NCBI GenBank assembly: GCA_023264995.1 | Contig: JAHFUR010000021.1 | Location: 1-64,000, forward strand | DNA length: 64,000 nucleotides | Source of the DNA: Acidimicrobiia bacterium | GTDB taxonomy: Bacteria > Actinomycetota > Acidimicrobiia > Acidimicrobiales > AC-14 | Direction of reading: 5' to 3' | Part shown: in pieces, positions 24,757-34,092 of the stretch | Position numbering within the stretch: the stretch's first letter is position 1 | Layout of the letters: each line of letters begins with the position of its first letter | Notes under the pieces: generated by a model | Told to the model about the DNA's origin: nothing | Seen by the model: only the letters and a program-made list of their open reading frames with translations | Database searches by the model: none | Program-made: the position numbers and the translations under genes

Positions 24757-25436
24757 AGCAAGTGGCGGCCGACCCGTACACCTGGCCCTACGACGGTCCG
24801 GTCGACCCGGCCCGCACCGCACTCGTGTGCATCGACTGGCAGGTCGACTTCTGCGGCCCCGGCGGCTACGTGGACGCCATGGGGTACGACTTGAAGCTCA
24901 CCCGGGCCGGGCTCGAGCCCACGGCGGTCGTTCTGGCCGCAGCCCGGGCTGCCGGGATGATGGTGGTCCACACCCGGGAGGGGCATCTCCCCGACCTGTC
25001 GGACTGCCCGCCCAACAAGCTGTGGCGGTCGAAGCGGATCGGCGCCGGCATCGGCGACACCGGGCCGTGCGGGCGCATCCTGGTCAAAGGCGAGCCGGGT
25101 TGGGAGATCGTGCCCGAGGTGGCACCGATCGCCGGCGAGGCCATCGTCGACAAGCCGGGGAAGGGTGCGTTCTACGCCACCAACCTGGACCTCCTGCTCC
25201 GGGTCGCCGGTATCGCCCACCTGATCTTCACCGGCATCACCACCGACGTCTGCGTCCACACGACGATGCGGGAGGCGAACGACAAGGGGTACGAGTGCCT
25301 CCTGCTCGAGGATTGCACCGGCGCCACCGACTACGGCAACTACCTGGCCGCCCTGCAGATGGTGAAGATGCAAGGCGGCGTGTTCGGGGCCGTGGCCCCG
25401 TCCAGCGCCCTCCTCGATGCCATGGAGGCGGCTTGA
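24753..25436 (+). CDS. biuH: Biuret-hydrolase-like cysteine hydrolase (isochorismatase superfamily)
   Basis: This protein has 227 residues from ATG 24753, overlapping the preceding stop. It follows the pattern I know for biuret amidohydrolase along its whole length: VDFCGPGGYVDAMGYDL, VVHTREGHLPDLSDCPPNK, RSKRIGAGIGDTGPCGRIL, GEPGWEIVPE, DKPGKGAFYATNLD, TGITTDVCVHTTMREAND. The catalytic triad is present: Asp in CIDWQVDF, Lys in VKGEPGW and Cys in TTDVC. The reaction would be biuret to allophanate plus ammonia; triuret hydrolase is a close relative and cannot be excluded, nor can ureidoacrylate-type substrates. The upstream importer and downstream amidase fit a nitrogen-scavenging pathway. Confidence 0.78.
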   Translation: MKQVAADPYTWPYDGPVDPARTALVCIDWQVDFCGPGGYVDAMGYDLKLTRAGLEPTAVVLAAARAAGMMVVHTREGHLPDLSDCPPNKLWRSKRIGAGIGDTGPCGRILVKGEPGWEIVPEVAPIAGEAIVDKPGKGAFYATNLDLLLRVAGIAHLIFTGITTDVCVHTTMREANDKGYECLLLEDCTGATDYGNYLAALQMVKMQGGVFGAVAPSSALLDAMEAA

Positions 25437-25582
25437 CGCCGACCAGTGATGGCGGAGGCGGCTTGACGCCGACCAGTGATGGCGGAGGCGGCTTGACGCC
25501 GACCAGTGATGGCGGAGGCGGCTTGACGCCGACCAGTGATGGCGGAGGCGGCTTGACGCCGACCAGTGACAGCGGAGGCGGC
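25424..25582 (+). repeat. 30-bp tandem repeat, five copies plus a partial
   Basis: The unit ggaggcggcttgacgccgac plus cagtgatggc is repeated from 25424; copies start every 30 bases, with two substitutions in the fifth and a 9-base partial sixth. The first copy overlaps the end of the biuH-like gene, so each unit repeats its last codons and stop: atggcggaggcggcttga reads M-A-E-A-A-stop in every copy. In the frame of the next gene the repeat is open (LTPTSDGGG). Each unit also carries GGAGG. It was probably made by slippage from the gene end. Confidence 0.95.
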
Positions 25583-27058: not shown

Positions 27059-27796
27059 CAGGGCGGCCAGGGCGGACGGGCATTCGAGCTGGGCCAAGTG
27101 GCCGGCGCCTGGGAGCACCGACGGGGCGCGGCCCGTGTGGGCGGCGACTGCGGCTGCGGCGGCATGACGGCTGGCCGGGCTCGCCTCGCCGACGCTACTG
27201 ACCAATGCCACGCCGCCGAGGGCCCGGAGCTGCACTGGGTCGGGTTCGAAGCGCAGGAACTGGGGGACCTCGGCTCGGACGACGGCTGGGCACGACGCCG
27301 CGGCGGCGACTTGGGAGGGGTGGAGCTGCTGCCACATCGACGGGCCGATCAGGGCACGGACGAACTCCAATACCCCGGCCTCGCCCTCCGACGCGGCCAG
27401 CCGCGCTGCGGCCGCGCTGAGCTGGGCGTGCAGCTCCGGAGCGAGGGCCCCGACGACCGGCTCGTGGACCACGGCGGCCGTCACCAGCTCGGGGTGCGAC
27501 ATGGCCAGGGCGAGCACCAGCGTGGCGCCGCCGGAGACCCCGACGAACGCCGCCGGCCCGACGCCCAGGTCGGCCAGGTCGTCGACCTGCCCACCCAACG
27601 AGGCGGGCAGGGCCAGGCCGGCGCTCCTGCCGTAGCCCCGCCGGTGCACCACCACGACCTCGTGGTCGACGGCGAGCCGGCGGGCCAGCCCGGCGTAGGA
27701 CCACGGCCCGATCCCGACGCCGTGGACCAGCACGACCGGCGGGCCCTGGCCGGTCCGGTCCTGGGCGAGCACGGCTCGGAGCGGGCTGCAGGTCAC
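26960..27796 (-). CDS. Alpha/beta hydrolase
   Basis: This protein has 278 residues from GTG 27796, which overlaps the stop of the response regulator upstream (GTGA). Fold motifs: oxyanion loop VVLVHGVGIGPWSYAGLA, VVVVHRRGYGRSAG, nucleophile elbow FVGVSGGATLVLALA with Ser in GVSGG, and a catalytic His in LPGAGHLAQLECP. Acid residue not assigned. Substrate unknown; the fold covers esterases, lactonases and haloperoxidase-like enzymes. The gene end overlaps the convergent amidase gene by 99 bases, a long overlap that is still compatible with both being real. Confidence 0.75.
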   Translation of the reverse strand: MTCSPLRAVLAQDRTGQGPPVVLVHGVGIGPWSYAGLARRLAVDHEVVVVHRRGYGRSAGLALPASLGGQVDDLADLGVGPAAFVGVSGGATLVLALAMSHPELVTAAVVHEPVVGALAPELHAQLSAAAARLAASEGEAGVLEFVRALIGPSMWQQLHPSQVAAAASCPAVVRAEVPQFLRFEPDPVQLRALGGVALVSSVGEASPASRHAAAAAVAAHTGRAPSVLPGAGHLAQLECPSALAALLRHAESLAFEGGARSHQQVFPARRGDKLHPDW

Positions 27797-28497
27797 GGGT
27801 CGAAGCGGTACCCGACGCCACGCACCGTCTTGATCCACCTGGGATGGTCTGGATCGGGCTCGATCCGCCGGCGGACCCTGCGGATGTGCTCGGTGACGGT
27901 GTCGGGGTCCTGCCACTCCTCCGAGGAGTCCCAGACGTTGGCCAGAAGCTGCTGGCGGGAGAAGACCTGCCGGGGTGAGGACGCCAGGAACGCGAGGAGG
28001 TCGAACTCCCGCGCCGTGGTGGCGACCACGAGGTTCCCGGCGGTGACCTCCCGGGTGGCGAGGTCGAGCATGAGGCCGTCGAACTGGAGGATGGAGTGGG
28101 GCAGGGCGTTGCGGGTACGACGGAGCACTGACGCGATCCGGGCCGTGAGCTCGCCAGGGGAGAAGGGCTTGACCACGTAGTCGTCCGCGCCCAGCTTGAG
28201 GCCCATGATCCGGTCGGCTTCGCTGCTCCGAGCGGTGAGGAGGATCACCGGGACGTCGCTGTGGCGGCGGAGGTTGGTGAGGATGTCGAGCCCATCCTCG
28301 GCCGGCAGCATCAGGTCGAGCAGGACGAGGTCGGGCTTCGTCGAGGCGATGGCGGCCAGGGCCTCGCCACCGTCGTTGACCTGCTCGACCTCGAAGCCCT
28401 CCATCTCCAGGTAGCGGGTCAGGAGCACCCGTACTGCCTCGTCGTCGTCGACCACGAGGACTTTCCCCGCCGAGGTTGGCTGTGAGGGCACCCTCAC
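27793..28497 (-). CDS. OmpR/PhoB-family response regulator
   Basis: This protein has about 234 residues; the start is taken as GTG 28497 just before the receiver domain, with GTG 28491 equally possible. Receiver domain: KVLVVDDDEAVRVLLTRYL, phospho-acceptor Asp in LVLLDLMLPAEDGL, conserved Thr in VILLTARSS and Lys in VVKPFSPGEL. DNA-binding winged helix: VATTAREFDLLAFLASSPRQ, RQQLLANVWD, TVTEHIRRVRRRIEP and VRGVGYRFDP. It is divergent from the phosphorelay operon that starts at 28665 across about 170 bp, so its partner kinase may be the one at 30022 (inference). It is coupled to the hydrolase gene downstream. Confidence 0.9.
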   Translation of the reverse strand: MRVPSQPTSAGKVLVVDDDEAVRVLLTRYLEMEGFEVEQVNDGGEALAAIASTKPDLVLLDLMLPAEDGLDILTNLRRHSDVPVILLTARSSEADRIMGLKLGADDYVVKPFSPGELTARIASVLRRTRNALPHSILQFDGLMLDLATREVTAGNLVVATTAREFDLLAFLASSPRQVFSRQQLLANVWDSSEEWQDPDTVTEHIRRVRRRIEPDPDHPRWIKTVRGVGYRFDP

Positions 28498-28664
28498 AGG
28501 GTAGGAGTTGGGCAAGGGTTGGGTTGGCGTGGGCCTTCCCATGGGAGGAACGGCCGATAGTGCAAGCGGTGCCCCTCTCATCCGTCGTTCGACCGGGTTC
28601 AAGTCCTGGGCCGGCGCTGTCGACAAAGACAAGGCGAATCGATTGTGCCGAACAGGGAGCCGGG

Positions 28665-29072
28665 ATGGGACAGGAACGACCAGCGGCCAGCCCCGCGGTG
28701 GATGAGGTCATGGAAGACCTCGGGCCCGTCGACAAGGGGGTAATTGAGCAGCTCGCCAGCATCACCGATGGTGAGGGTGAAAGCGTGCTGGGCGAGCTCC
28801 TCACTGCCTTCCTCGGCGCCGTCCCCGGGCGGCTGGACGCCCTGGACCGGGCAGTCGCCAGCTCGGACCTCGCGGCGATCGGCGACCAGGCCCACTCGCT
28901 CACCGGCAGCGCCGCCAGCTTTGGCGCCCGGGGGATGGCCGACCTGTGCCGCGAGTTGCGGGTCAGCGCCGACCAGCGCGACCTCGGCACGGCCCGACGC
29001 CTGGTCGAGGACCTCCACCAGGAATTCCTGCGGGTCCAGCTGTGGCTCGTGAATTTCCGGGCCAGCGCATGA
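28665..29072 (+). CDS. Histidine phosphotransfer (HPt) protein
   Basis: This protein has 135 residues from ATG 28665, with gggag upstream. Residues about 30-125 form an HPt four-helix bundle: VLGELLTAFLGAVPGRLDAL, then DQAHSLTGSAASFGARGMAD with phospho-accepting His near 84, then CRELRVSAD. HPt proteins relay phosphate between receiver domains. Stop overlaps the next start by 4 bases, so it is co-translated with the receiver-GGDEF protein and belongs to the same relay. Confidence 0.85.
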   Translation: MGQERPAASPAVDEVMEDLGPVDKGVIEQLASITDGEGESVLGELLTAFLGAVPGRLDALDRAVASSDLAAIGDQAHSLTGSAASFGARGMADLCRELRVSADQRDLGTARRLVEDLHQEFLRVQLWLVNFRASA

Positions 29073-30025
29073 ACGTGATCGTGGTCGACGACGACCCAGT
29101 GGTCCGGCTGGTCCTGGCCAAGGCGGTCGGGAGCATGGGCCACACGGCCATGCCGGCTGAGGACGGGGCGGAGGCCCTCCGCATCGTGGAGACCCAGCCG
29201 GTGGACGTGGTGGTCAGCGACTGGATGATGCCGGGCATGAGCGGGCTCGAGCTGTGCCAGCACATTCGGGCACGAGATGCCATCGAGTACATCTATTTCA
29301 TGCTCGTGACCGCGCTGGACGACAGCGAGCACGCCCTGGCGGGCATCGCGGCCGGCGTCGACGACTGCCTGGTCAAGCCTGTGCGGCCGTTCGACCTCCG
29401 GCTCCGCCTCATGGTGGCCGAACGGGTGACCGACCTCCACCGCCGGCTGGCCGAGCGCCAGCGGGGCCTAGAGCGCTCCAACGTCGACCTGGCGGCCACG
29501 GCTCGCCAGGACCCGCTCACCGGGCTGGGCAACCGGTTGAAGATGAGCGAGGACCTCGAGATCTTTTGGTCTCGTCGCGACCGCTACCACGAGCCCTTCG
29601 GCGTGGCCCTGTTCGACATCGACCACTTCAAGTCGATCAATGACATCGCCGGCCACCTGGCTGGCGACGAAGCCTTGCGCCAGGTGGCGGCGGTCATCCG
29701 CCGCGAGCTACGGGAGGCCGACATGGCCTACCGCTACGGGGGCGAGGAGCTTCTTGTCGTGTTGCCCGCCGGCGTACGCCGGGTCGCCGCCGCCGCCGAC
29801 CGGATCCGCAAGGCGGTCCAGAACTCGGCCATCCCGCACCCGGGCCGCCCGGGACCGGAGACGGTCCTCACCCTGAGCGTGGGGGTGGCCGCAGCCGAAG
29901 GCGACATCGAGTCCACGCTGCTGGCCGCCGATACCGCCCTTTACAAGGCCAAGTCCGAGGGTCGGAACCGAATGGCGGTGGCCGAGCGGCGGGTCACCGT
30001 GCCGGAGCTGGCGGCGTCCCCGTGA
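29069..30025 (+). CDS. Response regulator with GGDEF (diguanylate cyclase) domain
   Basis: This protein has 318 residues from ATG 29069. Receiver domain about 1-120: VIVVDDDPVVRLVLAKAV, Asp in VVVSDWMMPGMSG, Lys in CLVKPVRPFD. A short coiled linker (ERQRGLERSNVDLAATARQD) leads to a GGDEF domain: PLTGLGNRLKM, FGVALFDIDHFKSINDIAGH, and the active loop YRYGGEELLVVLP, where GGEEL is a workable variant of GGDEF. SEGRNRM ends it. Phosphorylation should promote dimerisation and cyclic-di-GMP synthesis. No RxxD inhibition site is evident in front of the loop (EADM precedes it). Confidence 0.88.
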   Translation: MNVIVVDDDPVVRLVLAKAVGSMGHTAMPAEDGAEALRIVETQPVDVVVSDWMMPGMSGLELCQHIRARDAIEYIYFMLVTALDDSEHALAGIAAGVDDCLVKPVRPFDLRLRLMVAERVTDLHRRLAERQRGLERSNVDLAATARQDPLTGLGNRLKMSEDLEIFWSRRDRYHEPFGVALFDIDHFKSINDIAGHLAGDEALRQVAAVIRRELREADMAYRYGGEELLVVLPAGVRRVAAAADRIRKAVQNSAIPHPGRPGPETVLTLSVGVAAAEGDIESTLLAADTALYKAKSEGRNRMAVAERRVTVPELAASP

Positions 30026-31800
30026 ACGTCGGCGCCGGCCCGGCGACGCCCACCCCGATGACCGAACCGGACGTCGCCACCATGCGGGCGGCCGGCGGTG
30101 CCCGGGTACTGGCCGCCGTCGTGACGACGACCGTCGGGCTGGCGGGGGTACAGCGGTGGGACTCGTCGCTGGCGCTCCTTCTCGGCGCCATCGGCCTGGT
30201 GTGGCTGCCATGGACGGTCCTCCTTCTCGTGGCCATCGCCACCAGCCGAGGCCGGCGAGTGGCGATGTACGGCGGGCCGGTCGGCGACGTCCTGATCGTG
30301 TTCGCCGCGCAATGCCTCGTCCCGTGGGCCTGGGGCATCCTGCTGCTGGCCGACGCCCTCGCCGTCGGCCTGGCCGCCTCGCTGTGGAGCCGGCGCAGCG
30401 CCTCGGCGCTCCTCGTCCTGAGCGTCGTCCTGACCGGCCTCGCCCAGGCGGTCGTCCCCACCGACGGTCGTGTCGCGCCGGGTCTGCTCGTCGTCTTCGC
30501 GCTGGCCATGGGCGGGCTCGTCGTCGTGGTCGGCCGGATCGCCAGCGACCACCGCATCGCCGCGGTCAGCTCGCACCGCTTCCAGGAGAAGGCGGAGACC
30601 ATCCTGGCCCGTGTCGCCGACGGCATCGTGGTCACCGACGGGTCCGGCGTCGTCCTGGAGACGAACCCGGCCGGCGAGCGGCTTATGGGCGGCCAGGGGT
30701 GGCCGGTGATCGGCCTCCCTTGCGCCCGGGCGTTGGGCCTTCACGAGGGTGAACGGCCCCTGGATTGCCGCGACGGGTGCCCGCTCCTGCACGACCCTCT
30801 CGTCGCCGAGGCCGGCCCGGGCCGGGAGGTATGGCGGCTGTTGCCCGATGGCCGGCGCCAGCCCCTCCTGGCCAGCGTGTTCTCCGTGGCCGATGAGAAG
30901 GGGGGTCTCGAGGTCGTCCATTCGCTGCGCGACATCACCCGCCTCAAGGAGGCCGACGAGGCCAAGACGCTGTTCTTGGCCACCGCCTCTCACGAGCTGA
31001 AGACGCCGGTGACGGTGATCGCCGGCTTCGCCGAGACCATCCTGCGTTACCCGACGATGCCCGAGGAGCGCCGCGCCGAGGCCGTGGAGGCCATTCGCCG
31101 GCGGGCGCTGGAGCTCTCGTCGATCGTCGACCGCCTGCTGCTCTCCAGCAAGATCGAGGGCGGCCGGGTCACCGTCGACATCCGACCTGTCGACGTGCGC
31201 GCCCTGATCGTCGAGCGGGGCAACGCCTTCCAGGACGCCACCGCGTGCCACGTCGTGCTCAACGTCCCCCACGAACCGCTGGTCGCCTACGGCGATCCAT
31301 TGGCGTTGCGGACCGTGGTCGACCACCTCCTCGACAACGCGGCGAAGTACTCCGACGGGGCCCCGGTGGTGCTCCGGAGCCGGCGGGACCTCGACAGGGT
31401 CGAGATCTCCGTCGGTGACCTCGGGATCGGCATGGACGAGGAGCAGGCTCGGCACTGTTTCGACAAGTTCTGGCAGGCCGAGTCAAGCGACGACCGGCGC
31501 TTCGGCGGCACGGGCATCGGCCTGTACATCGTGTCGTCGATGGTCGACGCCATGGGAGGCACCATGAAGGTGGAGACGGCGATCGGGCAGGGGAGCACGT
31601 TCACCGTGTCGCTCCCGGCGATGATCACGCCCGGCTCGGAGCAGTCCAGGGGCGGTGCTGGCCCCACCTCGCCGCTGGCGGCCGCGGGCGTCAAGCGTCC
31701 GTCCGGCGTGCTCTCGCGGGGCTCGGCAGCGACCGGCCCGGGAGGCCGGTCTAGGGAGCATTCACTGGTCCCCGGTCCCAACGGGAGTGTGGACCAGTGA
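30022..31800 (+). CDS. Membrane-bound PAS sensor histidine kinase
   Basis: This protein has 592 residues from GTG 30022, coupled to the previous gene. The N-terminus (about 15-175) has five to six hydrophobic segments forming a membrane sensor. A PAS-like domain follows (ILARVADGIVVTDGSGVVLE, PAGERLMG). Kinase core: H-box FLATASHELKTPVTVIAGFA (His near 323), N-box DHLLDNAAKYSDG, GDLGIGMDE, CFDKFWQAESSDDRRFGG and GTGIGLYIVSSMV. The end is Ser/Gly/Pro-rich and variable. It probably phosphorylates the small receiver encoded next and, through the HPt protein, the GGDEF regulator. Confidence 0.88.
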   Translation: MNVGAGPATPTPMTEPDVATMRAAGGARVLAAVVTTTVGLAGVQRWDSSLALLLGAIGLVWLPWTVLLLVAIATSRGRRVAMYGGPVGDVLIVFAAQCLVPWAWGILLLADALAVGLAASLWSRRSASALLVLSVVLTGLAQAVVPTDGRVAPGLLVVFALAMGGLVVVVGRIASDHRIAAVSSHRFQEKAETILARVADGIVVTDGSGVVLETNPAGERLMGGQGWPVIGLPCARALGLHEGERPLDCRDGCPLLHDPLVAEAGPGREVWRLLPDGRRQPLLASVFSVADEKGGLEVVHSLRDITRLKEADEAKTLFLATASHELKTPVTVIAGFAETILRYPTMPEERRAEAVEAIRRRALELSSIVDRLLLSSKIEGGRVTVDIRPVDVRALIVERGNAFQDATACHVVLNVPHEPLVAYGDPLALRTVVDHLLDNAAKYSDGAPVVLRSRRDLDRVEISVGDLGIGMDEEQARHCFDKFWQAESSDDRRFGGTGIGLYIVSSMVDAMGGTMKVETAIGQGSTFTVSLPAMITPGSEQSRGGAGPTSPLAAAGVKRPSGVLSRGSAATGPGGRSREHSLVPGPNGSVDQ

Positions 31801-32258
31801 CCGGGCACGGCCAGCCGGGACCGCCCCGCGCCCTGGTCGTCGACGATGCCGCTGACATCCGCCTGCTGGCCGACCTGGTGTTGACGATGGCTGGCTTCGC
31901 GGTGACTGCCGCGGCGAGCGGTCGCGAGGCCCTCCGGCAGCTGGCCGCCGGCGAGCTGCCGGACATCGTCCTCCTCGACGTCCAGATGCCCGAGATCGAC
32001 GGATGGGAGACCCTGGCCCGCGTTCGCAGTGACCCTCGCACGGCCTCGCTCCCCGTCGTCCTGTGCACGGTCAAGGGGTTGCCCGAGGACACGTTCAAGG
32101 GCTGGTCGCTGGGCTGTGACGGCTACCTGGGAAAGCCCTTCGAGATCACTGCGCTCGTCGCCGAGCTCCGGAGCGTCCTAGGGCGGACCGCCGCGGAACG
32201 GGAGGCGGCCCGCCGCGCCATGGTTGCGGAGGTGGGACGCTCCGTCCGGGCCAGCTGA
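31797..32258 (+). CDS. Single-domain response regulator
   Basis: This protein has 153 residues from GTG 31797, overlapping the kinase stop. Only a receiver domain is present: ALVVDDAADIRLLADLVL, Asp in IVLLDVQMPEIDGWETL, switch Thr in VVLCTVKG and Lys in YLGKPFEITALVAEL. A helical tail (AAEREAARRAMVAEVGR) follows without an output domain. Such proteins act as intermediate phosphate carriers or bind partner proteins; here it fits a multi-step relay with the HPt protein of the same operon. Confidence 0.87.
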   Translation: MTGHGQPGPPRALVVDDAADIRLLADLVLTMAGFAVTAAASGREALRQLAAGELPDIVLLDVQMPEIDGWETLARVRSDPRTASLPVVLCTVKGLPEDTFKGWSLGCDGYLGKPFEITALVAELRSVLGRTAAEREAARRAMVAEVGRSVRAS

Positions 32259-32768
32259 TCAGGCCGGCTTGGCCGCGTGCCAGACGCCGCCCACGCCGTC
32301 ACCCTTGGTGTCGCCCGGTGCTGTATCGGCAGCGTAGAAATACAGCGGCTTCCCGTTCCACACCACCTGCATCTTGGTGGCGTCGTCGGGGCGGGCCACG
32401 ACGGTGAGGCTGCCGACGCCCGTGCCGGCCACCGCAGTGGTGGCCCCGGAGGCCAGCACGAGCGGCGGCCACGTGGCCGCGCAGTTGCCGGTGCAGCTGC
32501 TCGTAGGACTGGTGTCGCGGTCGAAGGTATAGAGCGTCTTGCCAGAGGCGTCGACGAAGACCGTCCCCAGGCCCGTCGTGGCCGTGGCGACCGTGGCCTT
32601 CGGCGCGGCCGTGGTCGTGGTTGCCAGGGCCGCGGTGGTGGGCGTGGTCGCCGGGGCCTGGGCCGCGCCAGCGCCGGCGGTGACCGGCGTGTCGTCGCTC
32701 CCACAGGCGGTCATGGCCAACGCCAGGGTCGCGCCCAGGGCCACCGCGGACAGTCTGCGAGCTCGCAT
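32259..32768 (-). CDS. Lipoprotein with COG4315-type secreted repeat
   Basis: This protein has 169 residues from ATG 32768. Signal peptide with lipobox ALAMTAC (Cys near 22), then an Ala/Thr/Pro linker. The C-terminal part has two copies of a short repeat: GKTLYTFDRDTSPTSSCTG with CAATWPPLVL, and GKPLYFYAADTAPGDTKGDG with WHAAKPA. This is the pattern of the predicted secreted lipoproteins of COG4315, of unknown function, often found beside sigma factors. It is divergent from the ECF sigma gene across 107 bp and may belong to its regulon (inference). Confidence 0.8.
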   Translation of the reverse strand: MRARRLSAVALGATLALAMTACGSDDTPVTAGAGAAQAPATTPTTAALATTTTAAPKATVATATTGLGTVFVDASGKTLYTFDRDTSPTSSCTGNCAATWPPLVLASGATTAVAGTGVGSLTVVARPDDATKMQVVWNGKPLYFYAADTAPGDTKGDGVGGVWHAAKPA

Positions 32769-32875
32769 GTTTCTTCCTCCCGGATCGTTCGTTCCCGTCA
32801 GGTATCCCTACGGGAGGTGACGGCGGACGGATTGGTGCAATCTCCCCGGGGGTCGGCGACGTACCCTCGTGCACG

Positions 32876-33439
32876 ATGCCCGCCGCCTCTGACGACACGC
32901 TTCTCGCCAGCTTCGCGCTCGGCGACCGCGACGCTGCGGCCGCGTTCATCCGCAGGTACCAGAGCCGGGTCTACGGGCTGGCCCGGTCCATGGTCGTCGA
33001 CCCCGACCTGGCCGAGGACGTCGCCCAGGAGGCCTTCCTCCGGGCCTGGCGTAACGCGCCCTCCTATGACTCGCGGCGGGGTTCGGTCCATACGTGGATG
33101 CTGGTCATCACCCGCAGCCTCGCCATCGACGCCATGCGGCTTCGCCGGGCCCAGCCGGTCGACCCCGAGATGTTCGCTGCCCTCGACGACCGGGTGTCGA
33201 CGGCCCGGAGCCCCGAGGCGGCGGCCGAGACGAACGACGAGATGCGAGAGCTGCGGGAGGCGCTCGCCACCCTTCCGCCCGAACAGCGCCAAGCCCTGCT
33301 GCTCGCCGGCCTGTGCGGGCGCACTGCGGCCGAGATCAGCGAGATCGAGTCCATACCCCTGGGCACGGCCAAGACCCGCATCCGGACCGGGCTGGCGAAG
33401 GTCCGATCGTCGATGGCCAGGCGAGGCTCCGACCAGTGA
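32876..33439 (+). CDS. ECF-family RNA polymerase sigma factor
   Basis: This protein has 187 residues from ATG 32876. Region 2: AAAFIRRYQSRVYGLARSMV, DLAEDVAQEAFLRAWRNA, VHTWMLVITRSLAIDAMRLR. Region 4: ATLPPEQRQALLLAGLCGRT, AAEISEIESIPLGTAKTRIR, GLAKVRSSM. Region 3 is absent, as in all ECF sigmas. Its stop overlaps the anti-sigma gene start (GTGA), so both are made together. Likely target promoters include its own and that of the lipoprotein on the other strand. Confidence 0.92.
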   Translation: MPAASDDTLLASFALGDRDAAAAFIRRYQSRVYGLARSMVVDPDLAEDVAQEAFLRAWRNAPSYDSRRGSVHTWMLVITRSLAIDAMRLRRAQPVDPEMFAALDDRVSTARSPEAAAETNDEMRELREALATLPPEQRQALLLAGLCGRTAAEISEIESIPLGTAKTRIRTGLAKVRSSMARRGSDQ

Positions 33440-34092
33440 CCTGCGCCGAGCTGGAGGGGCTGGCCGCCGAGCTGGCGCTCGGCACGGTGTCCGGTGCCGA
33501 GCGGGCCGGTGCGCTCGACCACCTGGCCGGGTGCGTGGCATGCCGCGAGCTGGTGGCCGACCTGGCCCAAGCCGCGGACCGCCTGCTCCTCCTGGCGCCG
33601 GCGGCCGAGCCGCCACCGGGGTTCGAGTCCAAGGTCCTGGCCCGGATGGGCGTGGCGGTCCCGTCGCGGCATTCGCACCGCCCGCGTCGCCGGCGGGTGC
33701 TGGCGGGCGTGGCCGCCGCCGCCCTCGTCGCCGCAATGTCGGCGGTGGGGGCGACATGGCTGTCGGGCGGGACTGCGCCGGCGCCCGAGATCCGGACGGC
33801 CCTGGCCAGCGATGCCAACGGCCACTGGACCTGCCGGGCGGTGGTGTACGGCGACAAGCCCACGTGGCTGGTCGTCAGCCTCGACCGCACCGACGGCCTG
33901 TCGGCGGCGTTCACCGTCGACGCTCTCGGCGTGGGCCGCGACACGCCCGTGCCCGTCGGGAGCTTCTCCATCGACCAGGGCCACGGCTCGCTGGCCATCC
34001 CCGTCGGCCTGGCGGCCGAGGACCTGCGATCGGTGCGGGTCTTCGACGCCGGCGGGCGCCTGCGCTACGAAATGACGTTCCCGGTTACCTGA
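33436..34092 (+). CDS. Zinc-finger anti-sigma factor
   Basis: This protein has 218 residues from GTG 33436. The N-terminus carries an anti-sigma zinc-binding motif with Cys at residue 3 and HLAGCVACREL near 35, i.e. the H-x3-C-x2-C pattern. A single membrane segment lies at about 92-112 (VLAGVAAAALVAAMSAVGA). The outer C-terminal part is a beta-rich sensor domain (WTCRAVVYGDKPTWLVVSLD, GSFSIDQGHGSLAIPVG), like RskA. It should hold the sigma factor inactive until an extracytoplasmic signal triggers cleavage. The end overlaps the convergent dppC-like gene by 28 bases. Confidence 0.85.
   Translation: MTCAELEGLAAELALGTVSGAERAGALDHLAGCVACRELVADLAQAADRLLLLAPAAEPPPGFESKVLARMGVAVPSRHSHRPRRRRVLAGVAAAALVAAMSAVGATWLSGGTAPAPEIRTALASDANGHWTCRAVVYGDKPTWLVVSLDRTDGLSAAFTVDALGVGRDTPVPVGSFSIDQGHGSLAIPVGLAAEDLRSVRVFDAGGRLRYEMTFPVT

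Follow-up and report, generated by a model that had tools for sequence, protein, structure and literature searches.

A probable split multistep phosphorelay with c-di-GMP output and a WhiG-like promoter in an Acidimicrobiia bacterium

The stretch of DNA analysed here (the window) is the first 64,000 nucleotides of one contig (G000:C37:1-64000) of the 3.8 Mb, 81-contig genome of an Acidimicrobiia bacterium. Its positions 27793-32258 hold, as identified from open reading frames and Pfam families, a minus-strand gene for an OmpR-type regulator and, on the plus strand, genes for a histidine phosphotransfer protein (HPt), a diguanylate cyclase made of a receiver and a GGDEF domain (REC-GGDEF), a membrane histidine kinase and a protein consisting of a receiver only (REC-only). 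In the DNA the plus-strand genes overlap by ATGA at 29069-29072 (HPt/REC-GGDEF), GTGA at 30022-30025 (REC-GGDEF/kinase) and GTGA at 31797-31800 (kinase/REC-only). An earlier note on this DNA had described four such genes coupled by four-base overlaps and facing a divergent OmpR regulator, and Pfam and a reading of the DNA confirm it with corrected starts: 28665 for HPt, 29069 for REC-GGDEF and, for the regulator, most likely the GTG at 28489-28491 and not the TTG at 28632, because a good alignment of the proteins from the three congeners begins only near that codon. The elements of the locus are as follows.

27793 to 28491, minus strand: OmpR/PhoB-type regulator of about 232 aa (PF00072, 5e-32; PF00486, 1.7e-24)
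28507 to 28534, plus strand: candidate OmpR box, three repeats spaced by 11 bp, GTTGGG-N5-GTTGGG-N5-RTGGGC
28599 to 28626, plus strand: FliA/WhiG-like promoter, TCAAG-N15-GTCGACAA, 38 bp before the HPt ATG and conserved in two congeners (G001 and G002)
28665 to 29072, plus strand: stand-alone HPt of 135 aa, acceptor His77 in HSLTG (PF01627, 3.9e-13)
29069 to 30025, plus strand: REC-GGDEF diguanylate cyclase of 318 aa (PF00072 and PF00990; GGDEF 3.7e-40)
30022 to 31800, plus strand: membrane histidine kinase with PAS (PF08448), HisKA (PF00512) and HATPase_c (PF02518)
31797 to 32258, plus strand: REC-only protein of 153 aa (PF00072, 4.9e-23) with CTVK at beta-4

The order of the five genes is identical in both congeners compared, the uncultured Acidimicrobiia G001 and G002, at 66-86% identity; for the regulator this is 77-78% over its longer reading and 83-86% over the core. 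The Lipoprotein_15 and extracytoplasmic function (ECF) sigma neighbours of the relay are also kept in both, and since order and neighbours agree, the cluster is not a chance arrangement. All three four-base overlaps are retained in G002, while G001 has at least 55 bp between REC-GGDEF and the kinase start and lacks that coupling. In the window, the relay is followed at 32259-34092 by genes for a secreted Lipoprotein_15 protein (minus strand), an ECF sigma and possibly an anti-sigma.

All parts of a His-Asp-His-Asp relay (kinase, intermediate receiver, HPt and terminal receiver) are found here, each with its active-site residue. The solved HPt nearest to the one in the window is 7c1i (1.1e-7). 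The receiver of the cyclase carries D51, T81 and K103, and the Asp, Thr and Lys residues of receivers are present in both the REC-only protein and the OmpR regulator. The cyclase has a GG(D/E)EF-type active site in the form GGEEL, as found in 6 of 33 orthologues (GGEEF in 27), and the inhibitory RxxD I-site is present in all 33. A structure model of the kinase contains six N-terminal transmembrane helices, PAS, HisKA with His324 and a recognisable HATPase; the nearest solved structures are those of sensor kinases, WalK and HK853 among them. Three cysteines of the PAS domain, Cys234, Cys249 and Cys253 (window 30721-30780), form a C-x14-C-x3-C pattern that is invariant in nine of nine homologues, which suggests redox, metal, Fe-S or thiol sensing, possibly through a redox or metal ligand held in the PAS domain. 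No match to this pattern was found among the titles searched in the literature on PAS iron-sulphur proteins.

The pairing of HPt with REC-GGDEF reaches far beyond the genus. A four-row profile of REC-GGDEF run at E 1e-60 against 396 genomes of the phylum had matches in 35, own genome included; 29 loci besides the window were examined, 11 of the 41 matches having no locus and not being counted for an upstream HPt. At 25 of the 29, in another class of the phylum which we suspect to be Rubrobacteria or a near class (the 'f95' genomes), an HPt lies directly upstream on the same strand. It is mostly the C-terminal domain of a hybrid kinase of the order HisKA-HATPase-REC-(REC)-HPt, which by Pfam packs GAF, PAS, HisKA, HATPase, two receivers and Hpt into 1,935 aa in G473 and comprises PAS, HisKA, HATPase, one receiver and Hpt in G447; in G373 the HPt upstream of REC-GGDEF stands alone. 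The best pairwise orthologues of this class are 47-51% identical to the window REC-GGDEF. Domains that stand apart in some genomes and are fused in others are classically taken to work together, and here the fusion links all four relay steps to a REC-GGDEF output. By domain content, the five separate small proteins of the window correspond to a chain that is largely one giant protein in other actinobacteria.

Closer to home, a member of the same family, G004, encodes an HPt that carries a truncated receiver and overlaps by four bases with a REC-GGDEF (46%). The two stand downstream of a gene for a GGDEF-EAL protein, and a histidine kinase-REC pair with a four-base overlap of its own is convergent with them. 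As a control, none of four other GGDEF loci of the own genome has an HPt within 1.5 kb; outside these four, contig C7 encodes a 688-aa protein that fuses Hpt, two receivers and a weak GGDEF (L044:4492-6558, plus strand). In a tree of REC-GGDEF proteins those of the window, the congeners and the other class stand together, apart from other GGDEF proteins, with G004 outside the window's three; this split is partly by construction, because the other GGDEF proteins were found by the GGDEF domain alone.

The kinase keeps different company. At E 1e-40 it was matched in 7 of 60 relatives, own genome included (G009 and G016, matching the PAS-kinase core only, were dropped), and at E 1e-50 in 2 of 296 genomes of the class, own included, with only four candidates per genome scored. 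Of 11 kinase loci from named genomes eight were kept and three dropped as generic kinases (27-30% identity, kinase core only). Six of the loci lie outside the focal cluster (G034/L119, a second copy in G001/L121, L120, L122, G222/L123 and G054/L124), and at all six the kinase is followed by a seven-helix protein of about 255 aa. In four of the six a REC-only protein then follows, 48-49% identical to that of the window, and neither HPt nor GGDEF was found near any of the six kinases, in stretches of 5.3-16 kb, some of which end at contig ends. Homologous kinases thus keep the REC-only protein and not HPt or a diguanylate cyclase, so that kinase and REC-only appear to be an old pair, with the REC-only protein a probable intermediate receiver. 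In the focal genus the cluster lacks the seven-helix gene and includes HPt, REC-GGDEF and OmpR. The seven-helix protein has invariant SHFG and AFTCGPHH..H motifs, and neither of the two copies scanned reached the cut-off of any Pfam family; its model shows seven helices and no match to a PDB fold at E 0.001 or better. By its position, it is possibly a co-sensor of the related kinases. Copies are found at:

L062, 2223 to 3002, minus strand: seven-helix protein
L066, 9425 to 10213, plus strand: seven-helix protein
L060, 5262 to 6020, minus strand: seven-helix protein
L061, 8341 to 9108, plus strand: seven-helix protein
L120, 6016 to 6900, plus strand: seven-helix protein
L122, 2260 to 3012, plus strand: seven-helix protein

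The regulator is more widespread: at E 1e-50, 42 of 60 relatives, own included, contain a homologue. On own contig C26 and in G005:C150 (L046, L050) an HPt gene and a homologue of the regulator (49-51%) make up an operon, and a hybrid kinase gene is divergent from it. The nearest relatives outside the genus (G005, G053, G004, G006 and G012; 61-67%) stand beside REC-bearing or hybrid kinases in four of five cases, the stretch around the one in G004 having no such kinase, and the OmpR regulator of G002 has a REC-PAS kinase as its tail-to-tail neighbour. Because of these HPt and REC-kinase neighbours the regulator is likely to be phosphorylated via an HPt, and we consider it the probable DNA-binding output of the relay. 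The relative in G053 lies near PilT (L103:3492-4667, minus strand) and that in G006 near PilB with a c-di-GMP-binding MshEN domain, PilC and a pilin (L105:2773-5787, minus strand), which gives a lead towards a link with type IV pili.

The 173 bp between the regulator GTG and the HPt ATG contain two elements conserved in the three congeners. The first, the candidate OmpR box, has the 11-bp repeat spacing typical of OmpR-family sites and is found exactly once per genome, at that place, by a pattern drawn from those same three sites (window, G001 and G002); other sites with one or two mismatches number 5, vs 4 for a reversed control. Upstream of 11 OmpR relatives no exact copy was found and one weak one (G006). 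A near-perfect palindrome over the regulator start, CTGTGAGGG-CA-CCCTCACAG (CTGTGAGGGCACCCTCACAG, 28481-28500), is not conserved in G001 or G002 and was set aside.

The second element is the promoter. TCAAGT-N13..15-GYCGAYA occurs at 8, 10 and 4 sites in the three genomes (22), while the reversed pattern occurs at 0, 1 and 1 (2); without the three founding sites the comparison is 19 vs 2, and the spacing is identical in 21 of 22 sites (TCAAGT-N14-GYCGAYA) though three spacings were allowed. Each of the other 19 sites is followed within 350 bp by the start of a frame of 50 aa or more, which is a weak sign, GC-rich DNA being full of such frames. Among the genes downstream of these sites are one for a hybrid HK-REC-HPt kinase (own C78), one for a hybrid kinase (G001 C160), one for a SpoIIE-phosphatase protein and, in G001, a paralogue of OmpR. 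In the other class, TAAA/TCAA-N16-GCCGATAA with at most one mismatch precedes 4 of 19 hybrid frames (G473, G453, G424 and G404), the 19 being the genomes whose hybrid frame start falls inside the examined stretches; exact TAAA-N16-GCCGATAA is found in G473 and in G453, there about 400 bp before the called frame. Nine further sites with at most one mismatch lie elsewhere in the roughly 204 kb examined, part of which was covered twice.

Which sigma factor would read such a promoter? In each of the three genomes a single sigma exceeds the cut-off of FliA_WhiG (TIGR02479). That of the own genome passes the WhiG equivalog NF004935 (347.9 bits vs a cut-off of 343) and matches Streptomyces venezuelae WhiG at 2.7e-89. 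A DNA-pattern search with inspection detected in all three genomes a 178-aa homologue of RsiG, with the motif EDRVSYLRRIIQGRLD or near it. Its match to 6pfj_T, the chain partnered with WhiG of S. venezuelae and labelled AmfC, another name for RsiG, is at 3e-12 (phmmer). Against the RsiG chain of 7lq4 the value is 5.6e-6. The first copy of the c-di-GMP motif E(X)3S(X)2R(X)3Q(X)3D is exact in all three. According to the WhiG-RsiG study (PMC8325347), RsiG is armed by c-di-GMP, its twin-motif form is found in three of four Acidimicrobiales, and in R. radiotolerans WhiG promoters precede type IV pilus genes and five dgc/pde genes. In the own genome the two genes are located at:

G000:C35, 75402 to 76076 (L208): WhiG
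G000:C25, 79671 to 79718 (L218): RsiG homologue

The reading we favour, with rather better than even confidence and from comparison of sequences, is a split multistep phosphorelay running from the histidine kinase to REC-only, HPt and REC-GGDEF, with OmpR as a second output and with a WhiG-like promoter and feedback. This route is proposed because kinase/REC-only and HPt/REC-GGDEF are conserved pairs and because the hybrid kinases have their domains in this order; it is from the fusions and conserved pairs that we infer sequential phosphotransfer. The membrane kinase would autophosphorylate at His324 and pass the phosphoryl group to the REC-only protein, from which it would reach His77 of HPt and then the receiver of the diguanylate cyclase and, on a second branch, the OmpR-type regulator. 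The first output would be c-di-GMP and the second DNA binding by OmpR, probably at the 11-bp repeats; since these sit in the divergent region, OmpR probably regulates itself and controls the operon. The operon would be transcribed from the WhiG-like promoter, and the c-di-GMP from the relay would turn RsiG against WhiG and so damp expression of the relay, a feedback sign presumed by analogy with Streptomyces and Rubrobacter. The comparison thus lends good support to the multistep relay with c-di-GMP output proposed in the earlier note, and it narrows the branching of outputs, which that note had found not obvious: HPt and REC-GGDEF pair across classes, kinase and REC-only pair across families, and OmpR joins the relay only in the focal genus, among the genomes examined. 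The promoter, the probable link to WhiG and RsiG and the fused counterparts go beyond what had been noted before.

Several observations weigh against this reading. No HPt precedes REC-GGDEF at 4 of the 29 loci (L133, L134, L135 and L152), and in the HPt tree, where 27 of 45 inner branches are open, the HPts of the window and of the hybrids do not group. The REC-GGDEF receiver has Cys100 instead of Tyr at the aromatic switch position (K-3), which across 33 orthologues is Tyr in 27, Cys in three (the focal genus) and His in two, with one unread by the script; this aromatic residue is common in REC-GGDEF receivers, not strictly defining. The REC-only protein, on the other hand, retains the Tyr of output receivers (CDGYLGKPF) and has LCTVKG at beta-4 in place of the F-x-S/T-G-Y motif, so that it is not a FATGUY-type intermediate receiver like those of CckA, CpdR, MrrA and SdrG; the work defining that motif lists ShkA as likewise without it (PMC9981736). 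HPt has a Thr three residues past the His (HSLTG), usually a Lys position, where five other aligned HPts have Arg or Lys; the corresponding K67 of Ypd1 is described as touching the receiver (PMC6341664). The promoter deviates from the published flagellar consensus TAAA/GCCGATAA by three mismatches in the window, two in G001 and three in G002, the published limit being two (PMC8325347); the window site thus lies outside the WhiG regulon so defined and fits the local consensus TCAAGT-N14-GYCGAYA, and it is on this local motif that the WhiG assignment rests. At 15 of the 19 hybrid operons no such promoter is found at one mismatch or less, and in each of the three congeners Phe replaces Gln in the second motif of RsiG.

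Going further, one may picture a closed loop in which the relay, transcribed by WhiG, activates OmpR and produces c-di-GMP, and RsiG, armed by this c-di-GMP, removes WhiG, the loop being old in the phylum and the relay fused in the other class and split in the focal genus. We put this forward as tentative; that the relay is part of some c-di-GMP/WhiG feedback loop may be so.

Somewhat less likely still is that the promoter is read not by WhiG but by a SigB/SigF- or ECF-type sigma, in which case there would be no c-di-GMP feedback. The FliA_WhiG profile has 8, 13 and 8 matches in the three genomes, only one in each passing the cut-off, so there are other related sigmas; TCAAGT also differs from the textbook TAAA. 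Yet the -10 GYCGAYA and the 16-nt distance from TCAA to it fit the flagellar class, and the exact consensus does stand before two hybrid operons of the other class.

We regard it as unlikely that HPt, REC-GGDEF and OmpR are served mainly by distant hybrid kinases, with kinase and REC-only forming a separate CheY-like or stand-alone branch. Four Hpt domains of the own genome do lie in long frames besides the stand-alone ones, the same promoter motif is found at hybrid kinases (C78 HK-REC-HPt in G000, C160 in G001), and there are kinase homologues without a nearby HPt. However, both halves share one gene row in all three congeners, with the couplings all kept in the window and G002, and G004 independently sets a kinase-REC pair beside HPt-REC-GGDEF.

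That the locus combines two ordinary two-component systems side by side, the kinase feeding REC-GGDEF and/or OmpR directly and HPt and REC-only acting as sinks or buffers, is more doubtful again: the kinase is translationally coupled to REC-GGDEF in the window (30022-30025), OmpR has a full receiver site and the Tyr switch, and there are the four REC-GGDEF loci lacking an upstream HPt, but outside the cluster the kinase retains REC-only rather than REC-GGDEF or OmpR, and HPt precedes REC-GGDEF at the other 25. A reverse flow of phosphate, or REC-only as a sink, is possible.

Separate from the cluster, the window contains at 25424-25582 a 30-bp unit repeated 5.3 times in tandem with 98% matches; the flanking genes are, by eye, isochorismatase-like and amidase-like.

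As for known systems, the favoured split relay resembles Borrelia Hk1/Rrp1 in that a phosphorelay-type kinase feeds a REC-GGDEF protein; the Borrelia kinase is reportedly a hybrid and there is said to be no divergent OmpR regulator, whereas the kinase here is not hybrid and OmpR is divergent. Pseudomonas putida CfcA/CfcR likewise has a GGDEF response regulator, CfcR, with its gene under an alternative sigma (RpoS); CfcR depends on the hybrid kinase CfcA and is reportedly a GGDEF/EAL protein without a split HPt/REC relay. In Bacillus Spo0 the kinase, a REC-only protein and the phosphotransferase are separate proteins before the output regulator, as here; the difference is that we find a Pfam Hpt protein and one cyclase output, and with Hpt in the place of Spo0B (sought only within Pfam and NCBIfam) the locus is not a Spo0-type relay. 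Another phosphotransferase, ChpT, is said not to be an Hpt-fold protein. CckA-ChpT-CtrA/CpdR, as described in a paper that also mentions Spo0F (PMC9981736), similarly has one phosphotransferase and two receivers, one of them DNA-binding, but CckA is a hybrid and its second branch leads to proteolysis, here to c-di-GMP.

The WhiG-RsiG system (PMC8325347) is matched in that WhiG and an RsiG homologue are in the genome and a flagellar-class promoter stands before the cyclase operon, and its authors propose feedback loops. Here the promoter precedes a whole stimulus-gated phosphorelay, not a gene for a diguanylate cyclase or phosphodiesterase, and RsiG is of the twin-motif form with one altered residue. 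The earlier note's remark that separate relay parts are unusual in actinobacteria is half right: HPt domains occur in 14.49% of 635 actinobacterial species and in that phylum stand alone more often than fused (PMC4558063), and the own genome has nine Hpt domains as well as the HPt-OmpR operon by a hybrid kinase on contig C26. The literature searched, mostly without subscription papers, contains no report of the five-gene cluster or of a WhiG-driven phosphorelay. The circuit is real, conserved and sensible, its parts are of known kinds, and, as far as that literature goes, the arrangement and probable WhiG wiring are new.

A dedicated phosphorelay with a WhiG-like promoter of its own provides a way into the question of what inputs govern the c-di-GMP level seen by the WhiG/RsiG switch, and the conserved three-cysteine PAS domain suggests redox or metal as an input that can be tested. 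Comparing the fused with the split forms offers a natural test of how phosphorelay specificity evolves upon domain separation. If true, the closed loop would put the WhiG programme under the control of a signal at the membrane.

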